Assembly: GCF_002286735.1 (NCBI RefSeq)
Contig: NZ_NRTA01000021.1
Span: forward strand, 1 to 64,000
Direction: 5' to 3'
Origin: Leptolyngbya sp. BC1307
Lineage (GTDB): Bacteria; Cyanobacteriota; Cyanobacteriia; Phormidesmidales; Phormidesmidaceae
Length of the DNA stretch: 64,000 nucleotides
Positions 52,385 to 57,471 of the stretch are shown in pieces. Under the pieces are notes generated by a model, which ran no database searches, was not told the origin of the DNA, and saw only the letters and a program-made list of their open reading frames with translations. Every line of letters starts with the position of its first letter. Positions within the stretch are counted from its first letter, which is position 1. The translations under genes were made by a program, and so were the position numbers.

Positions 52385-52644
52385 AGCAATAGGTAAGCAG
52401 GGGACAAAGCATGTTCATCCCAATGTTTTTTCAATAGACTGCATGGCTGACCTGCCTAGTTGGGTCTGGTATAGAGCGATCGCATAGCTGAACTAGAGTG
52501 AACCGTAGATGAAGATTTTACTGCCTGCGCCAGATCTAATTTGGCATGAAGCTTGCGTGAAGATGATGTGGCTAGTAAAAACCCCTAGAGCCCTTAGTGA
52601 TACTTTAGTTGCACGGTGGTACATTTACCCAGCGAGCGATAAAT

Positions 52645-53604
52645 ATGAATTTTAGTACGAAGCGTAGAAACCTGCACCTCAGGGAATTTCGAGCTGCAAA
52701 TATGTATCCATACATCAGTGCGCTTCGTCCTCATCACTGGACGAAGAACCTAATTATTTTTGCTGCGCCGCTGTTCAATTTTAGTTTTAACATAGCAACT
52801 GTTCTTAACAGTTTATTTGCATTCTGTTTGTTTTGTTGTATCTCAAGCAGCTTTTATCTACTCAACGATATTGCTGATATTGAGTCTGATCGGCGTCATC
52901 CGGTCAAGTGCGAGCGACCCATTGCCGCTGGCAAAGTGCCAATTTCGGCAGCGGCGGGAATGTCGTTGTCTTTGCTCGGTGGGTCTATTGGCTTAGGGCT
53001 GTATCACTCTTTCTCTTTGGGGCTGACACTAATTTGCTATGCCCTTTTGCAGCTAGCTTACAATCTCAAGTTAAAGCGAGTCGTACTACTGGATATCATT
53101 GTAATTGCCAGTGGCTTTGTGATTCGAGCCTGTGCGGGTGCAGTGGCGACAAGGGTTGATTTGTCGGTGTGGTTTTTAGTCTGTACTGCCATGCTGGCGC
53201 TGTTTCTCGCGATTGAAAAGCGTAAGGCTGAATTGCGGCGGGGGGGTAGCACGCGATCAGTGCTCAAACGCTATTCTCCGTCTTTGCTGCTGCGTTTAGA
53301 GAATGTCGCAACGACGGGAACGCTGATGAGTTATGCCCTGTGGAGCGCGGGACTGGGCTTAGAAGGGGCAACAACGCCCTGGATGATGCTGACGTTCCCA
53401 TTCGTTTTATACGGCGTGTTTCGCTATCAGCTGCTGAGTGATCCGCACGGTCAGCCCGGCGATCAGCAAGAAATGGCTAAGGAGAGAACCGAGCGCCCAG
53501 AAGGTGTGCTCTTGACAGACAAGCCTTTGCTACTGACTGTCTTTATTTGGGGCCTAGTCGCGTTTTCTATTCTGTGGCTTGAGCATCAGGGCTTAATTCA
53601 ATAA
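52645..53604 (+). CDS. UbiA-family polyprenyl-phosphate phosphoribosyltransferase (DPPR synthase type)
   Basis: DPPR synthases move 5-phosphoribose from PRPP to polyprenyl phosphate. The protein has about nine hydrophobic helices and the subgroup's signatures: YISALRPHHWTKNLIIFAAP at the start and SSFYLLNDIADIESDRRHPV with the metal-binding NDIxDxExDxxHP. A second site is YNLKLKRVVLLDIIVIASGF. I choose ATG 52645 (319 aa); a TTG at 52609 and an ATG at 52702 are alternatives. It heads a five-gene run with a small transporter, two multi-spanning glycosyltransferases and a HAD phosphatase. This fits the mycobacterial-style lipid-linked pentose route. Subgroup call is good; product inferred. Confidence 0.88.
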   Translation: MNFSTKRRNLHLREFRAANMYPYISALRPHHWTKNLIIFAAPLFNFSFNIATVLNSLFAFCLFCCISSSFYLLNDIADIESDRRHPVKCERPIAAGKVPISAAAGMSLSLLGGSIGLGLYHSFSLGLTLICYALLQLAYNLKLKRVVLLDIIVIASGFVIRACAGAVATRVDLSVWFLVCTAMLALFLAIEKRKAELRRGGSTRSVLKRYSPSLLLRLENVATTGTLMSYALWSAGLGLEGATTPWMMLTFPFVLYGVFRYQLLSDPHGQPGDQQEMAKERTERPEGVLLTDKPLLLTVFIWGLVAFSILWLEHQGLIQ

Positions 53605-53656
53605 TTCGAGCGCCGCTCTCTCGAATGATGCTCACTGGACTAATAGATATGAAAAG

Positions 53657-53992
53657 ATGTCACATCCGATCTTTATAGGGCTGATTTTAGTAACGGTTGG
53701 ATTAAATACGCTTGCTCAAGTGTTGTTTAAGTCGGGTGCCGGCGATAGTTTGCTAAACGTATATCTGTTGGGTGGTGTAGCTGCATATGGTCTGAGTACG
53801 CTTGTCTATATCTCAATTTTGGGCAAGCTCAACTTGTCGGTGGCTTATCCAGTGGTGATTGGCCTGACGGTGGTGTCAACAACTATTATGGGAGCGGTCG
53901 TGCTGGGAGAAAAAGTCTCTTCTATCAACTGGGCGGGGATAGGTCTGATGATTAGCGGTCTGTTTGCAGTGGCTTACGGCCGCACGCTGTAG
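53657..53992 (+). CDS. Small multidrug-resistance-type (SMR/EamA) four-helix transporter
   Basis: The 111-residue protein has four transmembrane helices (FIGLILVTVGLNTLAQVLFK, LLGGVAAYGLSTLVYISIL, YPVVIGLTVVSTTIMGAVVL, GIGLMISGLFAVAYG) and a conserved Gln in LAQVLFKSG. Such small proteins pair up and some (ArnE/ArnF type) flip undecaprenyl-phosphate sugars. In this cassette, a lipid-linked pentose flippase is the natural guess. It starts 52 bp after the UbiA gene and 79 bp before the next. Confidence 0.85.
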   Translation: MSHPIFIGLILVTVGLNTLAQVLFKSGAGDSLLNVYLLGGVAAYGLSTLVYISILGKLNLSVAYPVVIGLTVVSTTIMGAVVLGEKVSSINWAGIGLMISGLFAVAYGRTL

Positions 53993-54070
53993 ATTTTACC
54001 GTTAGGCTAACTGAGCATTGACGCTGCGGGAGTAGGATTTGCTGTATTGGGAGCGCAAAGGGTCAACTTT

Positions 54071-55372
54071 ATGATGCCTGACTTTTTAAGTATAGTGAGC
54101 TTAAAACGTTTGACTAATCTGGCGTGGGGCGCTCGCCTGAACCTCTTTATCGGTCTCATACTTGCCATCATCGCCAGCGTTATCGCCTATTACTGCGCCG
54201 AGCTGATTGGCCCAGAGCTGTTCGCCATTGGCCCTTACGGTGACACCTGGTTTGATTCTGATGTCGCGGCTTATTATAAGACTATCGCTAATCATCAAGA
54301 TTCCACTTTGCACAAGCGGACTTACAAGCATCCGCTACTCTCACTGGCGTTTTGCCTGCCTATCTATCTACTGCAAGCAATCCATGTGCCGTCTTTGGTG
54401 GCTGTGCGGATAGTGATAGCTGGTATCGCTGCGGTTTGGCTAGTAAGTCTTTTTGGCTGTCTCCGGCTGATGGGCTGCCGCCTGCTAGAAGCAGTTTTGC
54501 TCAGCTTATTGGGATTGCTCAGCGCGGCAGGACTTTTCTGGCTGACGGTTTTAGAGTCTTTTGGACTGGGTTCGATTGGCCTGATTTGGGCCTTGGCGCT
54601 GGTCGCGCTGGCAGAAACGCGGCGGTTGGCTGGGGGCTGGGGGGTGGTAATTAGCCTGGCGACGCTGAGCATTACGGTGACCAACTGGATTTTTGGTCTG
54701 GTGGCTGTGGCCTTAGCCTATACCTGGAAGCAGATGATTTGGGTAAATGGCGTTGCTTTGCTGATCTTTGGGGTGCTGGTGGGCGCGCAGCAGCGGCTGT
54801 TTGGAAGCGCGTTGCCGCTGTCTATTCCCACTAAAGAGCTGAGGTATTTCCTGTCTGCTGAGGCGGGCGGCCCTTGGAATGTGATTCGGGCTTTTGTTTG
54901 CCATACTATAGTGATGCCTGCTATCCAGGTGATTCAGCATCCGCGCACGGGTTTGCCGATGATGACGGTTCAGTTCTCTGCGCCGGGAGCGGGGCATGGG
55001 TGGGGGGCGATCGCCGTAGGTCTCTGGTTAGGTCTAGTCACGCTGGGTCTGTGGCAGCTATTCACGCTGAAAGCCCATAGGCAATTACGGCTAATGATAG
55101 GCATCTCACTGCTCGGGCAGCTAGGGCTGCATTTGGTCTATACCGGGCGAGAAACCTTTCTCTATTCGCTACATTTTCTACCTTTTTGGCTAGGTCTGGT
55201 CGCGTTGGGCGGACTAGATACGAAACACTATCTCCGGCGACGTTTGTTTATTACCCTCCTGATCGCACTTTTGATCACAGGGGGGATCAACAATCTGACT
55301 CAGTTCGCTGAGGCAAGAGCGTTTTATCACGGCGCTTATCCGGTTGACATAGAGACAGAACCCAAGGCCTGA
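54071..55372 (+). CDS. Multi-pass membrane protein, probable GT-C glycosyltransferase
   Basis: ATG 54071 (MMPDFLSIVS) has AAAGGG 8 bases upstream; a TTG at 54047 would add eight residues. The 433-residue protein has about ten to twelve hydrophobic segments. After TM1 it has an extracytoplasmic acidic loop (YGDTWFDSDVAAYYKTIANH) containing the DxD-like motif typical of GT-C enzymes. It then has HKRTYKHPLLSLAFCLPIYL. It lacks a named family match. The donor would be the lipid-linked sugar made by the cassette. Confidence 0.65.
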   Translation: MMPDFLSIVSLKRLTNLAWGARLNLFIGLILAIIASVIAYYCAELIGPELFAIGPYGDTWFDSDVAAYYKTIANHQDSTLHKRTYKHPLLSLAFCLPIYLLQAIHVPSLVAVRIVIAGIAAVWLVSLFGCLRLMGCRLLEAVLLSLLGLLSAAGLFWLTVLESFGLGSIGLIWALALVALAETRRLAGGWGVVISLATLSITVTNWIFGLVAVALAYTWKQMIWVNGVALLIFGVLVGAQQRLFGSALPLSIPTKELRYFLSAEAGGPWNVIRAFVCHTIVMPAIQVIQHPRTGLPMMTVQFSAPGAGHGWGAIAVGLWLGLVTLGLWQLFTLKAHRQLRLMIGISLLGQLGLHLVYTGRETFLYSLHFLPFWLGLVALGGLDTKHYLRRRLFITLLIALLITGGINNLTQFAEARAFYHGAYPVDIETEPKA

Positions 55373-55420
55373 TGCAGCTCGATTTGCCTTGAAGGCTTCA
55401 AGTTTGAGCAAGACTGATAT

Positions 55421-56857
55421 GTGGAGACGTTTGGGAATCGCATGGTTCGTTTGTCGCTGACCCCAAAGAGTGTAATTGACTACTGGCAGCAGCTAACGCC
55501 TCTGACTAAGGGGCTGCTGATTTTATTGGCTGTCAATACGATAGTTGTTTTACCCTCCGTTCTTGTATCGCTGAGCGATCGCTACATTTTTGACCTAGCG
55601 GTCAGACCCAGAGAGATGCCGCAGTACCATCTGCTGAAATTTCTCACAGTGCAGCAAGATCTGGACTCGTGGGAGCCGATGTGGCAAGCGTTTGAGCAGC
55701 TCAAAGCCGCGCCTAAAGAGCCGCTGTATGCCGAAATATTTTTCGATCAGCACACCAAGTTTCAGTATCCGCTGACCTCTTTACTGCTGTTCTATGCGCT
55801 GCAAGCTGTGTTAGCGCCGTTCACTTCTCACTATCCTCAGGCTCTATATGCTGTACTGGCGATCGCCTCCTGGATCTCTTTTGTCGGTCTACTCGTTGTT
55901 TCAGTCAACATCTTCAATACCGCTTGTCAGCAAACAAACGCAATACGCCCTCAAAATTCTGAACAAATTCTCAGAACTGTTCTTTTAGTATTGCTCGGGT
56001 TGAGCTTTTACCCGGCAATTCGTGCCTATAGCTTGGGTCAGATTCAGGCATGGATCAATCTGCTGTTCGCCGTTATGCTGTGGTGCTGGATGCGCGAGAA
56101 GCAACAGATTGCCGGTGTGTTAGGGGGGCTAGTCTGTCTGGTCAAGCCTCAGTATGCGGTGATTTTGCTGTGGGGGCTGCTGCGCCGACGCTGGCGATTT
56201 GCGATCGCCTTTTTTGCGGTGACGGCTGCGGGCTGGCTGGTCGCCTGCATCATGTTTGGCGTTGCTAATAATCTGGACTATTTACAGGTGCTCTCTTTTA
56301 TCTCAAAACGGGGAGAGGCTTATTTTCCGAATCAGTCGGTCAACGGTTTATTGAATCGTTTGCTATTTAATGGTAGCAACTTAACCTGGACAGCCGATGC
56401 CTTTGCGCCCTTTAGCCCCTGGGTTTATATCGGGACGTTGGCCAGCTCAGTACTACTGCTAATCGGTGCGCTGCGACCGGCTAGAAATCGGCGATCGCGC
56501 GGCCATACGGTCGATTTTGTCTTGGTATCGCTGACGGCGACAATGGCATCTCCGGTGGCTTGGGAGCATCACTACGGCATTTTGCTACCAATCTATGCGC
56601 TGCTGCTGCCTCAGCTTTGCCAGTATCGGATCTGGGGTGTGCTGACGCTACCCCTGCTAGGGCTGAGCTACATCTTAGCTAGCAACTATTTCTACATTAC
56701 CAAAAAGTTTGCGGCTCTGCCGCTGCTGAATATTGCGCAGTCTTATCTATTTTTTGGGGCGCTAATCGTATTGCTGATCCTTTATCGGCTGCGCGATCGC
56801 GTCACTTCTCAACCGCCTGACCAGCCGGATCAAGTCCCCATAACCGAACGGTCGTGA
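55421..56857 (+). CDS. GT87-family membrane glycosyltransferase
   Basis: The 478-residue protein shows the GT87 (DUF2029) pattern: about ten helices, RAYSLGQIQAWINLLFAVML, and the AGVLGGLVCLVKPQYAVILL stretch with its conserved Lys. GT87 enzymes in Actinobacteria use polyprenyl-phosphate mannose or arabinose to build lipoglycans. An extracytoplasmic loop (LTWTADAFAPFSPWVY) follows. GTG 55421 is used here, with ATG 55442 as alternative. Its stop overlaps the next gene's start (TGATG), so the two are translationally coupled. Confidence 0.85.
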   Translation: METFGNRMVRLSLTPKSVIDYWQQLTPLTKGLLILLAVNTIVVLPSVLVSLSDRYIFDLAVRPREMPQYHLLKFLTVQQDLDSWEPMWQAFEQLKAAPKEPLYAEIFFDQHTKFQYPLTSLLLFYALQAVLAPFTSHYPQALYAVLAIASWISFVGLLVVSVNIFNTACQQTNAIRPQNSEQILRTVLLVLLGLSFYPAIRAYSLGQIQAWINLLFAVMLWCWMREKQQIAGVLGGLVCLVKPQYAVILLWGLLRRRWRFAIAFFAVTAAGWLVACIMFGVANNLDYLQVLSFISKRGEAYFPNQSVNGLLNRLLFNGSNLTWTADAFAPFSPWVYIGTLASSVLLLIGALRPARNRRSRGHTVDFVLVSLTATMASPVAWEHHYGILLPIYALLLPQLCQYRIWGVLTLPLLGLSYILASNYFYITKKFAALPLLNIAQSYLFFGALIVLLILYRLRDRVTSQPPDQPDQVPITERS

Positions 56858-57471
56858 TGCCATCAAAGCCTGAGCGATCGCTTACCATAGCCGTCTTTGA
56901 CTTTGACGGCACCCTGACGCGATGCGATTCATTTTTTCCTTTCTTATGGGCACTCGTAGGCCGCTGGCGGTTTTTTTGGGGAGTCGTCCGCTTGAGTCCG
57001 ATACTCGCGGGATACAGCCTCAAGCTCATTCCCAACTGGCGAGCCAAAGAATCAATGCTCACCTATTTTCTAGCGGGCAAGTCAGCGTCTCAGCTAGCTG
57101 CCTTTAGCCAGCGCTTCGCAGACGATGTCTTACCTAAGCTCCTGCGGCCAGAGGCGATCGCGCGCCTGAGATGGCATCAGCAACAGGGGCATCGCACCAT
57201 TGTAGTCAGCGCCTCTTTGGAAATTTACCTGCGGCCCTGGGCGACACGAATGGACATCGATCAGGTCATCGGCACTCGACTGGAGAGCCACCGTGACCGT
57301 TTGACCGGGCGCATTTTAGGCAAAAACTGCTACGGCCCTGAAAAAGTCAGCCGCTTACAGTCTTTTGTGGGTCAGTCGCAGCCTGTGCTCTATGCCTACG
57401 GAGATAGTCGGGGCGACCATGAGCTGCTAGCCGCCGCTAAGTATCCTTACTACCGCAAGTTTCAGGACTAA
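56857..57471 (+). CDS. HAD-IB family phosphatase
   Basis: The 204-residue protein has the HAD motifs: nucleophile loop VFDFDGTLTRCDSF (Asp about 16), motif II VSAS in HRTIVVSASLEIYL, a Lys in YGPEKVSRLQ, and motif IV YAYGDSRGDHELLAA. It belongs to subfamily IB, like serine phosphatase and the HAD domains fused to UbiA enzymes in other bacteria. It should remove the 5-phosphate from polyprenyl-phospho-5-phosphoribose. It ends the cassette. ATG 56857 overlaps the GT87 stop by one base; GTG 56854 is an alternative. Confidence 0.87.
   Translation: MPSKPERSLTIAVFDFDGTLTRCDSFFPFLWALVGRWRFFWGVVRLSPILAGYSLKLIPNWRAKESMLTYFLAGKSASQLAAFSQRFADDVLPKLLRPEAIARLRWHQQQGHRTIVVSASLEIYLRPWATRMDIDQVIGTRLESHRDRLTGRILGKNCYGPEKVSRLQSFVGQSQPVLYAYGDSRGDHELLAAAKYPYYRKFQD

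Follow-up and report, generated by a model that had tools for sequence, protein, structure and literature searches.

The gene cassette

Within the stretch of Leptolyngbya sp. BC1307 DNA analysed here, 64,000 nucleotides in length (contig NZ_NRTA01000021.1, positions 1 to 64,000; hereafter the window), nucleotides 52645–57471 of the forward strand carry five tightly packed open reading frames (ORFs) with the look of a lipid-linked pentose pathway. They specify a putative UbiA-fold polyprenyl-phosphate phosphoribosyltransferase (PPPRS), resembling decaprenylphosphoryl-phosphoribose (DPPR) synthase (52645..53604), an SMR-type small transporter (53657..53992), a predicted GT-C membrane glycosyltransferase (54047..55372), a second membrane glycosyltransferase of family GT87 (55421..56857) and a HAD-IB phosphatase (56854..57471). 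All five frames are open; the intergenic gaps measure 52, 54 and 48 bp, and the GT87 and HAD genes overlap by 4 bp. The start of the UbiA gene was taken as the ATG at 52645, the first in-frame start being a TTG at 52609 and an internal ATG lying at 52702. ORF, Pfam and NCBIfam analyses bear out the initial annotation, made from the letters and translations alone, which had read this run as UbiA, SMR, two glycosyltransferases (the second GT87) and HAD.

The UbiA-fold protein

The first protein belongs to the UbiA superfamily (PF01040; 85.9 bits) and passes the NCBIfam model for decaprenyl-phosphate phosphoribosyltransferase (NF008978) with 237.1 bits against a cut-off of 207. It fails the sister models NF008977 (204.7 bits; cut-off 234) and NF008976 (177.1; 474), and lies below the cut-offs of the chlorophyll, quinone and haem O models ChlG (15.7 bits; 313), UbiA (16.3; 275.45) and CtaB (22.9; 210.3). 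Its best solved relative is Rv3806c of M. tuberculosis (PDB 8j8j; E=2.9e-39), for which passages of PMC10994848 list 12 residues in contact with 5-phosphoribosyl pyrophosphate (PRPP). Ten of these are identical in the window protein (R22, K28, Y70, N73, D77, K87, R90, Q135, Y138 and K143, in Rv3806c numbering), including all of the Mg/PRPP residues (N73, D77, K87, R90 and K143) and the 5'-phosphate residues K28 and Y70.

Relatives were sought in a phylum sample of 292 genomes, in which 14 passed the NF008978 cut-off and 40 scored at least 98 bits, the next score being 41. Twenty fetched regions and 80 named loci, the best 80 of 418 confirmed candidates, were compared. Seventy-four of the 80 are cyanobacterial, and the six others were dropped ahead of the cyanobacterial counts; all fractions of 74, and of subsets of named loci, refer to this best-80 set. 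For the 26 genomes with a DPPR-like UbiA below the cut-off, the regions classified were L055–L059, L060 and L061, the latter a second locus of genome G060. A set of 87 DPPR-like sequences (the window UbiA, the 80 named loci and L053–L058) holds Y70, N73, D77, K87, Y138 and K143 in 87/87, R90 in 86, R22 and K28 in 85 each (with two gaps) and Q135 in 80. The genome's own six UbiA paralogs all lack Q135, and K28 and Y70 are found in one each.

In a quick tree, with 44 of 91 inner branches left open, both Rv3806c and the window UbiA fall within the DPPR group and the six paralogs stand apart (support 99, on very long branches for Rv3806c and the paralogs); the window UbiA groups with loci free of DprE genes (support 83). 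Its designation as a DPPR synthase in the initial annotation, and the expectation there that it would not cluster with quinone or chlorophyll prenyltransferases, are both borne out to the extent that the protein appears DPPR-synthase-like: family, residues and kinship point to phosphoribose transfer to polyprenyl phosphate. A role as a quinone, chlorophyll or haem prenyltransferase was ruled out by the model scores, the tree and the PRPP-site residues.

Two gene layouts in cyanobacteria

The regions around the UbiA relatives were searched with HAD, SMR, GT-C and GT87 profiles that were home-made from a few sequences. SMR and/or HAD-IIIA genes occur in 43 of the 74 cyanobacterial loci, DprE1 in 17, and both in none; among the remaining 14, four have HAD-IB alone and ten are without an SMR, HAD or DprE1 match in the DNA compared. 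The split holds in the 59 loci that extend for 4 kb or more downstream and 1 kb or more upstream (36 with SMR and/or HAD-IIIA, 14 with DprE1, none with both and nine with neither). An SMR match of 44 bits in L077, supported by Pfam, was added by hand to these counts, and HAD-IIIA matches of L078 and L105, hidden by an overlap filter in the layout count, are visible in the profile search. Seven loci bear two labels and were not summed (L042/L065, L044/L066, L051/L116, L153/L106, L154/L107, L155/L112 and L159/L103).

In the DprE-free layout, the order UbiA, HAD-IIIA, SMR on one strand was found in 30 of the 31 loci checked for order, the exception being L076; an SMR gene lies near the DPPR-like UbiA in 36/74. 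Of the 17 named DprE1 loci none has an SMR match, 12 carry, judging by shared start, a HAD-IB domain fused to a flippase-like LPG_synthase_TM domain (Pfam-checked for L043, L044 and L157), and 12 come from Prochlorococcaceae or Synechococcaceae. DprE1 loci score at least 224 bits with the DprE2 profile, with no match seen in L157; a short-chain dehydrogenase/reductase (SDR) scoring 100 bits is encoded close to the UbiA gene of L042/L065, on the opposite strand. At least four changes between the layouts are needed on the UbiA tree, so that, if the tree holds, the epimerase module was gained or lost more than once. Genome G060 has both kinds of UbiA locus, and its DprE1 sits with the other UbiA.

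In the window's family, 8/63 genomes pass the NF008978 cut-off, as do 2/7 of its genus. Five of the seven other loci of the family are UbiA–HAD-IIIA–SMR, one is UbiA–SMR, and the last, L157, combines DprE1 with the HAD fusion. The exact five-gene set was rejected as a conserved unit: what recurs is a core of UbiA, HAD and SMR followed by variable genes, and L049, which has all five gene classes, has them with HAD-IIIA. By its gene families, the window's cassette is the DprE-free layout (SMR, GT-C) with the HAD subtype of the DprE1 layout, a mix of SMR and HAD-IB seen likewise in Nostoc calcicola (L077). At the six other UbiA loci of the same genome (approximately 1.5 kb to each side), none matches the SMR or HAD profiles (E 1e-5). 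The grouping in the cassette is thus beyond chance, since SMR and HAD genes repeatedly adjoin related UbiA genes elsewhere and none of the six paralog loci.

These comparisons modify three statements of the initial annotation. Conservation of the five genes together stands for the UbiA/HAD/SMR core and falls for the full set; that the pathway is not standard in cyanobacteria is right as to its patchy distribution, yet 74 of the best 80 relatives are cyanobacterial; and the DprE1/DprE2 step, presented there as actinobacterial, is present in cyanobacteria too. Overall, what had been observed was confirmed and how it had been interpreted is partly supported.

Several other features were seen among the relatives. 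Fourteen mostly picocyanobacterial records (L117, L119–L122, L124–L126, L128–L130, L134, L137 and L138), including Prochlorococcus, Synechococcus and Cyanobium, combine a DPPR-like UbiA with DprE1 and DprE2, and the HAD-IB–LPG_synthase_TM fusion is present in many; a polyprenyl-P-arabinofuranose pathway is predicted for them from their genes. The UbiA of L135, on a contig binned as Flammeovirgaceae, groups with that of Prochlorococcus L126 (support 99), and the contig is probably mis-binned. One gene family lies near UbiA in seven loci (L063:8916-9614, L070, L090, L092, L094, L096 and L115); its member L063:8916-9614 is a SAM-dependent methyltransferase by Pfam, and the pentose is perhaps methylated there. 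In four Nostoc loci (L094, L096, L100 and L102) three more gene families stand together downstream of SMR, those of L094 being a PMT-like transferase, a protein-kinase-domain protein and an AAA_26 protein.

The HAD phosphatase

The last protein of the cassette scores 146.8 bits with Pfam and 162.6 bits with the HAD-IB model TIGR01490 (cut-off 98.3). The strings DFDGT, VVSAS, PEKV and GDSRGD stand at the usual HAD motif positions, and we take these motifs to have their customary roles. Four HAD forms occur near DPPR-like UbiA genes: a separate HAD-IIIA; a separate HAD-IB (the window, L063, L077, L115 and the DprE1 locus L122); the HAD-IB–flippase-like fusion; and a HAD fused to UbiA itself (L059, L060 and L061). 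In the HAD tree the window protein falls into a clade (support 100) with the HAD domains of the DprE1 loci L157, L066 and L082 and the standalone HADs of L077, L063 and L115, at identities of 44–63%. The exchange of one HAD subfamily for another in this position speaks for a step that dephosphorylates the pathway product.

The HAD-IIIA of the relatives was also considered as a bystander, a housekeeping gene of the YqeG type. This was ruled out: among 16 hand-picked genomes, YqeG-type HAD-IIIA is present in two copies in 6/6 genomes of the HAD-IIIA layout, one of them extra, and in a single copy in 10/10 others including the window's own.

The SMR transporter

The second protein passes PF00893 with 24.5 bits against a cut-off of 23.7. 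The TMEM234 model gives it a better E-value than PF00893 while remaining below its own cut-off, and its best NCBIfam match is ArnE, with 30.2 bits, far below the cut-off of 92. From its context it is a candidate polyprenyl-P-ribofuranose flippase.

The membrane glycosyltransferases

The third protein (441 residues) matches no family of Pfam or NCBIfam at the thresholds applied, and a sequence search against solved structures gave a single match, at E=0.076. Its AlphaFold2 model has a pLDDT of 86.4 (alignment of 18 sequences). VIA-align matched the model to 48 entries with Z of 11.9–23.0, the next entry having 4.4; we take all 48 to be GT-C enzymes, except two GPI transamidase entries. The GT-C entries are ALG12, Pmt, ArnT, oligosaccharyltransferases, AftB, AftD, AftA, Emb and PimE. 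Foldseek gave one match below E=0.001, again ALG12, and weaker matches that include transporters with low TM-scores. Asp72, His95, Thr210, Thr212 and Asn213 are invariant in the 18 sequences, and Asp72 lies in the first outer loop, presumably the place of the catalytic acid of GT-C enzymes. A GT-C fold, which the initial annotation had proposed for this protein, is thus predicted by the model. Much longer relatives (1011–1104 residues) are specified by L069:5696-8926, L106:9960-13274, L112:10037-13342 and L157:5-3040; those of L069, L112 and L157 reach no Pfam cut-off.

The fourth protein passes PF09594 (GT87) with 70.0 bits against a cut-off of 25. Its sequence found no match among solved structures, and its structure model is poor (pLDDT 39.7, from three sequences). 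In the window this gene adjoins the HAD gene, as in L044/L066.

The lipid-linked sugar

The initial annotation had noted the lack of a DprE1-like oxidase here and proposed a search of the genome; DprE1 was accordingly sought in the whole genome, which is 99.99% complete. It gave background matches to the DprE1 model (NF053785) with a best E-value of 2.4e-11, no ALO domain, and four FAD_binding_4 proteins. Across the 292 genomes, 13 reach at least 283 bits with NF053785 and the next match has 80.8. The DprE1 of L044 falls just short of its cut-off, with 474 bits against 500, and its match to solved DprE1 has E=1.1e-98. Since DprE1 is convincing in relatives, its absence from the window's genome is informative, and ribofuranose is therefore the likeliest lipid-linked sugar. 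The 14 genomes over the NF008978 cut-off divide into seven with DprE1 and seven without, the window's among the latter. One genome with no strong match to DPPR synthase has a DprE1 of 414 bits (G143:C3:3472545-3473789).

Genes around the cassette

Named by eye from their translations, the gene upstream of the cassette is NAD(P)H-hydrate-repair-like, and those downstream are DEAD-box-helicase-like and desaturase-like. No polysaccharide cluster is obvious beside the cassette from a look at these neighbours, no family scan of the whole window having been made. Scans for promoters and terminators gave 4 and 10 hits, respectively, with 5.0 and 6.8 expected.

Proposed pathway and alternative explanations

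We read the cassette as a lipid-linked ribofuranose transfer system, namely the DprE-free form of a two-layout cyanobacterial system, with a HAD of the subtype found in the other, and put the probability of this reading at roughly 0.72. The UbiA protein would join PRPP and polyprenyl phosphate into polyprenyl-P-ribose-5-P, from which the HAD phosphatase would remove the 5'-phosphate to leave polyprenyl-P-ribofuranose. As the genome search turned up no DprE1, the sugar would remain ribose. The SMR protein, to go by its setting, may flip the lipid-sugar outward, and the GT-C enzyme predicted from its fold, probably together with GT87, would pass ribofuranose to an acceptor outside the membrane. 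Gene content and order, family membership, residues, the predicted fold and the lack of DprE1 matches are observed or computed.

A number of points weigh against this reading. The reactions, the direction of flipping and the acceptor are all inferred for this organism. The window UbiA departs from Rv3806c at two of the 12 contacts (Y157F and K208S); position 157 is F in 87/87 of the DPPR-like set, and, according to passages of PMC10994848, in some mycobacteria too, and position 208 is K in just 17/87. The six UbiA paralogs keep 5–8 of the 12 contacts, which makes the difference at these residues a gradual one. GT87 is rare in the relatives, a narrow profile finding it in 2/74 loci and in L049. 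Of the ten relatives without an SMR, HAD or DprE1 match, five have more than 7 kb downstream. The window SMR barely clears its Pfam cut-off, and SMR proteins also export drugs. The search for DprE1 did not extend to an SDR epimerase elsewhere in the genome, which would give xylofuranose.

This last point leads to the first of the alternatives, in which the same machinery is at work but hands on arabinofuranose or xylofuranose, an enzyme with its gene outside the cassette having epimerised the lipid-bound ribose ahead of export. Relatives do have DprE1/DprE2 in the UbiA locus, and passages of PMC11127046 assign an SDR epimerase to the xylofuranose version in Citrobacter. Against such a step stand the background-level DprE1 matches in a nearly complete genome, the lack of an SDR among the five cassette genes and the position of DprE1 in relatives, which is within the UbiA locus (named loci, the search having covered loci only); we consider it unlikely. 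Rather more credit, though still well short of an even chance, goes to the possibility that the lipid-linked pentose glycosylates a protein, a pilin or S-layer protein, and not a polysaccharide. A DPPR-synthase orthologue has been proposed for pilin arabinosylation in Pseudomonas (PMC11127046), and among the structures that the GT-C model resembles are protein O-mannosyltransferases, along with ArnT and AftB. Nothing decisive speaks against a protein acceptor, as the GT-C fold cannot tell the acceptor; the sole report of ribofuranose that we found, in passages of one paper, places it on a polysaccharide of Nostoc.

Two further explanations fare worse. The cassette might be a mosaic that does not work as a whole, the remnant of a DprE1 locus after epimerase loss: the window HAD shares its clade with HAD domains of DprE1 loci, GT87 adjoins HAD as in L044/L066, and HAD-IIIA is missing. 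We hold this improbable in view of the five open frames and intact HAD motifs, the placement of UbiA with DprE-free loci and the same SMR and HAD-IB mix in N. calcicola. The reading of the UbiA as a common prenyltransferase for quinones, chlorophyll or haem, its neighbours being incidental, has in its favour membership of the PF01040 superfamily; scores of 15.7–22.9 bits to ChlG, UbiA and CtaB against 237 to DPPR synthase, the separation of its own paralogs in the tree, Q135, which the DPPR group retains and all six paralogs lack, and the recurrence of HAD and SMR neighbours leave it scarcely any weight.

Comparison with known systems

The pathway type to which the ribofuranose transfer reading assigns the cassette is already known, from the three-component pentofuranose systems (Kelly et al. 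2024) and from mycobacterial arabinan synthesis; in cyanobacteria there appear to be a ribose and an arabinose form of it. The variant features here are the SMR transporter, the separate HAD, a GT-C enzyme without a family model and the added GT87.

A small SMR-like protein adjoining a lipid-linked pentose pathway is also found in ArnE/ArnF, the undecaprenyl-P-aminoarabinose flippase, to which the window SMR is related by no more than the below-cut-off score given above. The cyanobacterial DprE1/DprE2 layout (for example L044/L066, L043, L045, L048 and L052) has UbiA proteins related to the window's, the six compared being 63, 60, 58, 49, 47 and 40% identical to it, and many of its members share the window's HAD-IB family; it differs in possessing DprE1 and DprE2, in the HAD fusion of most of its loci and in lacking SMR. 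The mycobacterial decaprenyl-P-arabinose pathway (Rv3806c, Rv3807c, DprE1/DprE2, Rv3789 and Emb/Aft) has the same first-enzyme family, the same flip-then-transfer logic and GT-C transferases. By contrast, no DprE1 was found in the window's genome and the window phosphatase is a HAD; Rv3807c is unrelated to HAD-family phosphatases according to passages of PMC11127046.

Ribose and arabinose have been reported in cyanobacterial extracellular glycans (passages of PMC4390846), and D-ribofuranose and nosturonic acid are stated to occur as pendants on Nostoc heteroglycans (PMC5635763, in a passage citing Helm et al. 2000); the passages of a Nostoc sphaeroides paper that we consulted make no mention of ribose. 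Seven of the eight Nostoc-titled loci have SMR and/or HAD-IIIA (L077, L079, L085, L094, L096, L100 and L102), L127 has neither, and none of the eight has DprE1. The ribofuranose pendants reported for Nostoc polysaccharide are a candidate product of cassettes of this type. More speculatively, the DprE-free layout (UbiA, HAD, SMR and GT-C) could be an unrecognised cyanobacterial route to ribofuranose side chains on extracellular polysaccharide, those of Nostoc included, with gain or loss of the DprE1/DprE2 module switching between ribose- and arabinose-decorated surfaces in the manner of enteric serotype switching; we regard this as a possibility with the odds against it. In the openly licensed literature we found no paper assigning genes to the ribose or arabinose of cyanobacterial glycans by this route, and the main text of PMC11127046 does not mention cyanobacteria. 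The cassette and its relatives offer a defined gene set, a clean contrast between loci that have DprE1/DprE2 and loci that do not, and enzymes open to testing, among them the GT-C protein without a Pfam or NCBIfam family.

Among the closest parallels is the characterised system of Citrobacter youngae O1/O2, described in the passages of Kelly et al. 2024 (PMC11127046) as a HAD–UbiA fusion, a MATE protein, which is the proposed flippase (its activity was not shown), and a GT-C enzyme of family GT136; DprE1/E2 or an SDR epimerase is present where arabinose or xylose is made. Shared with the cassette are the UbiA-fold synthase, the HAD-type phosphatase, a proposed flippase and a GT-C enzyme. In the window, synthase and phosphatase are present in one operon-like run (presence being all that was scored), and the GT-C transferase lies in the same locus, its fold being that of the predicted model. 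The ribose version of O1 works without the epimerase gene of O2, and the cassette is likewise without an SDR gene. The differences are that the HAD is fused to the synthase in Citrobacter and separate in the window; that the Citrobacter flippase is of the MATE type, in place of which the cassette has an SMR protein (cassette genes alone compared; no genome-wide MATE search was made); and that the Citrobacter GT-C, the founder of GT136, has a carbohydrate-binding module, whereas the window GT-C matches neither a Pfam nor an NCBIfam family and is accompanied by GT87. The cassette and its relatives also suggest that pathways of this type can exchange their phosphatase and flippase as modules.

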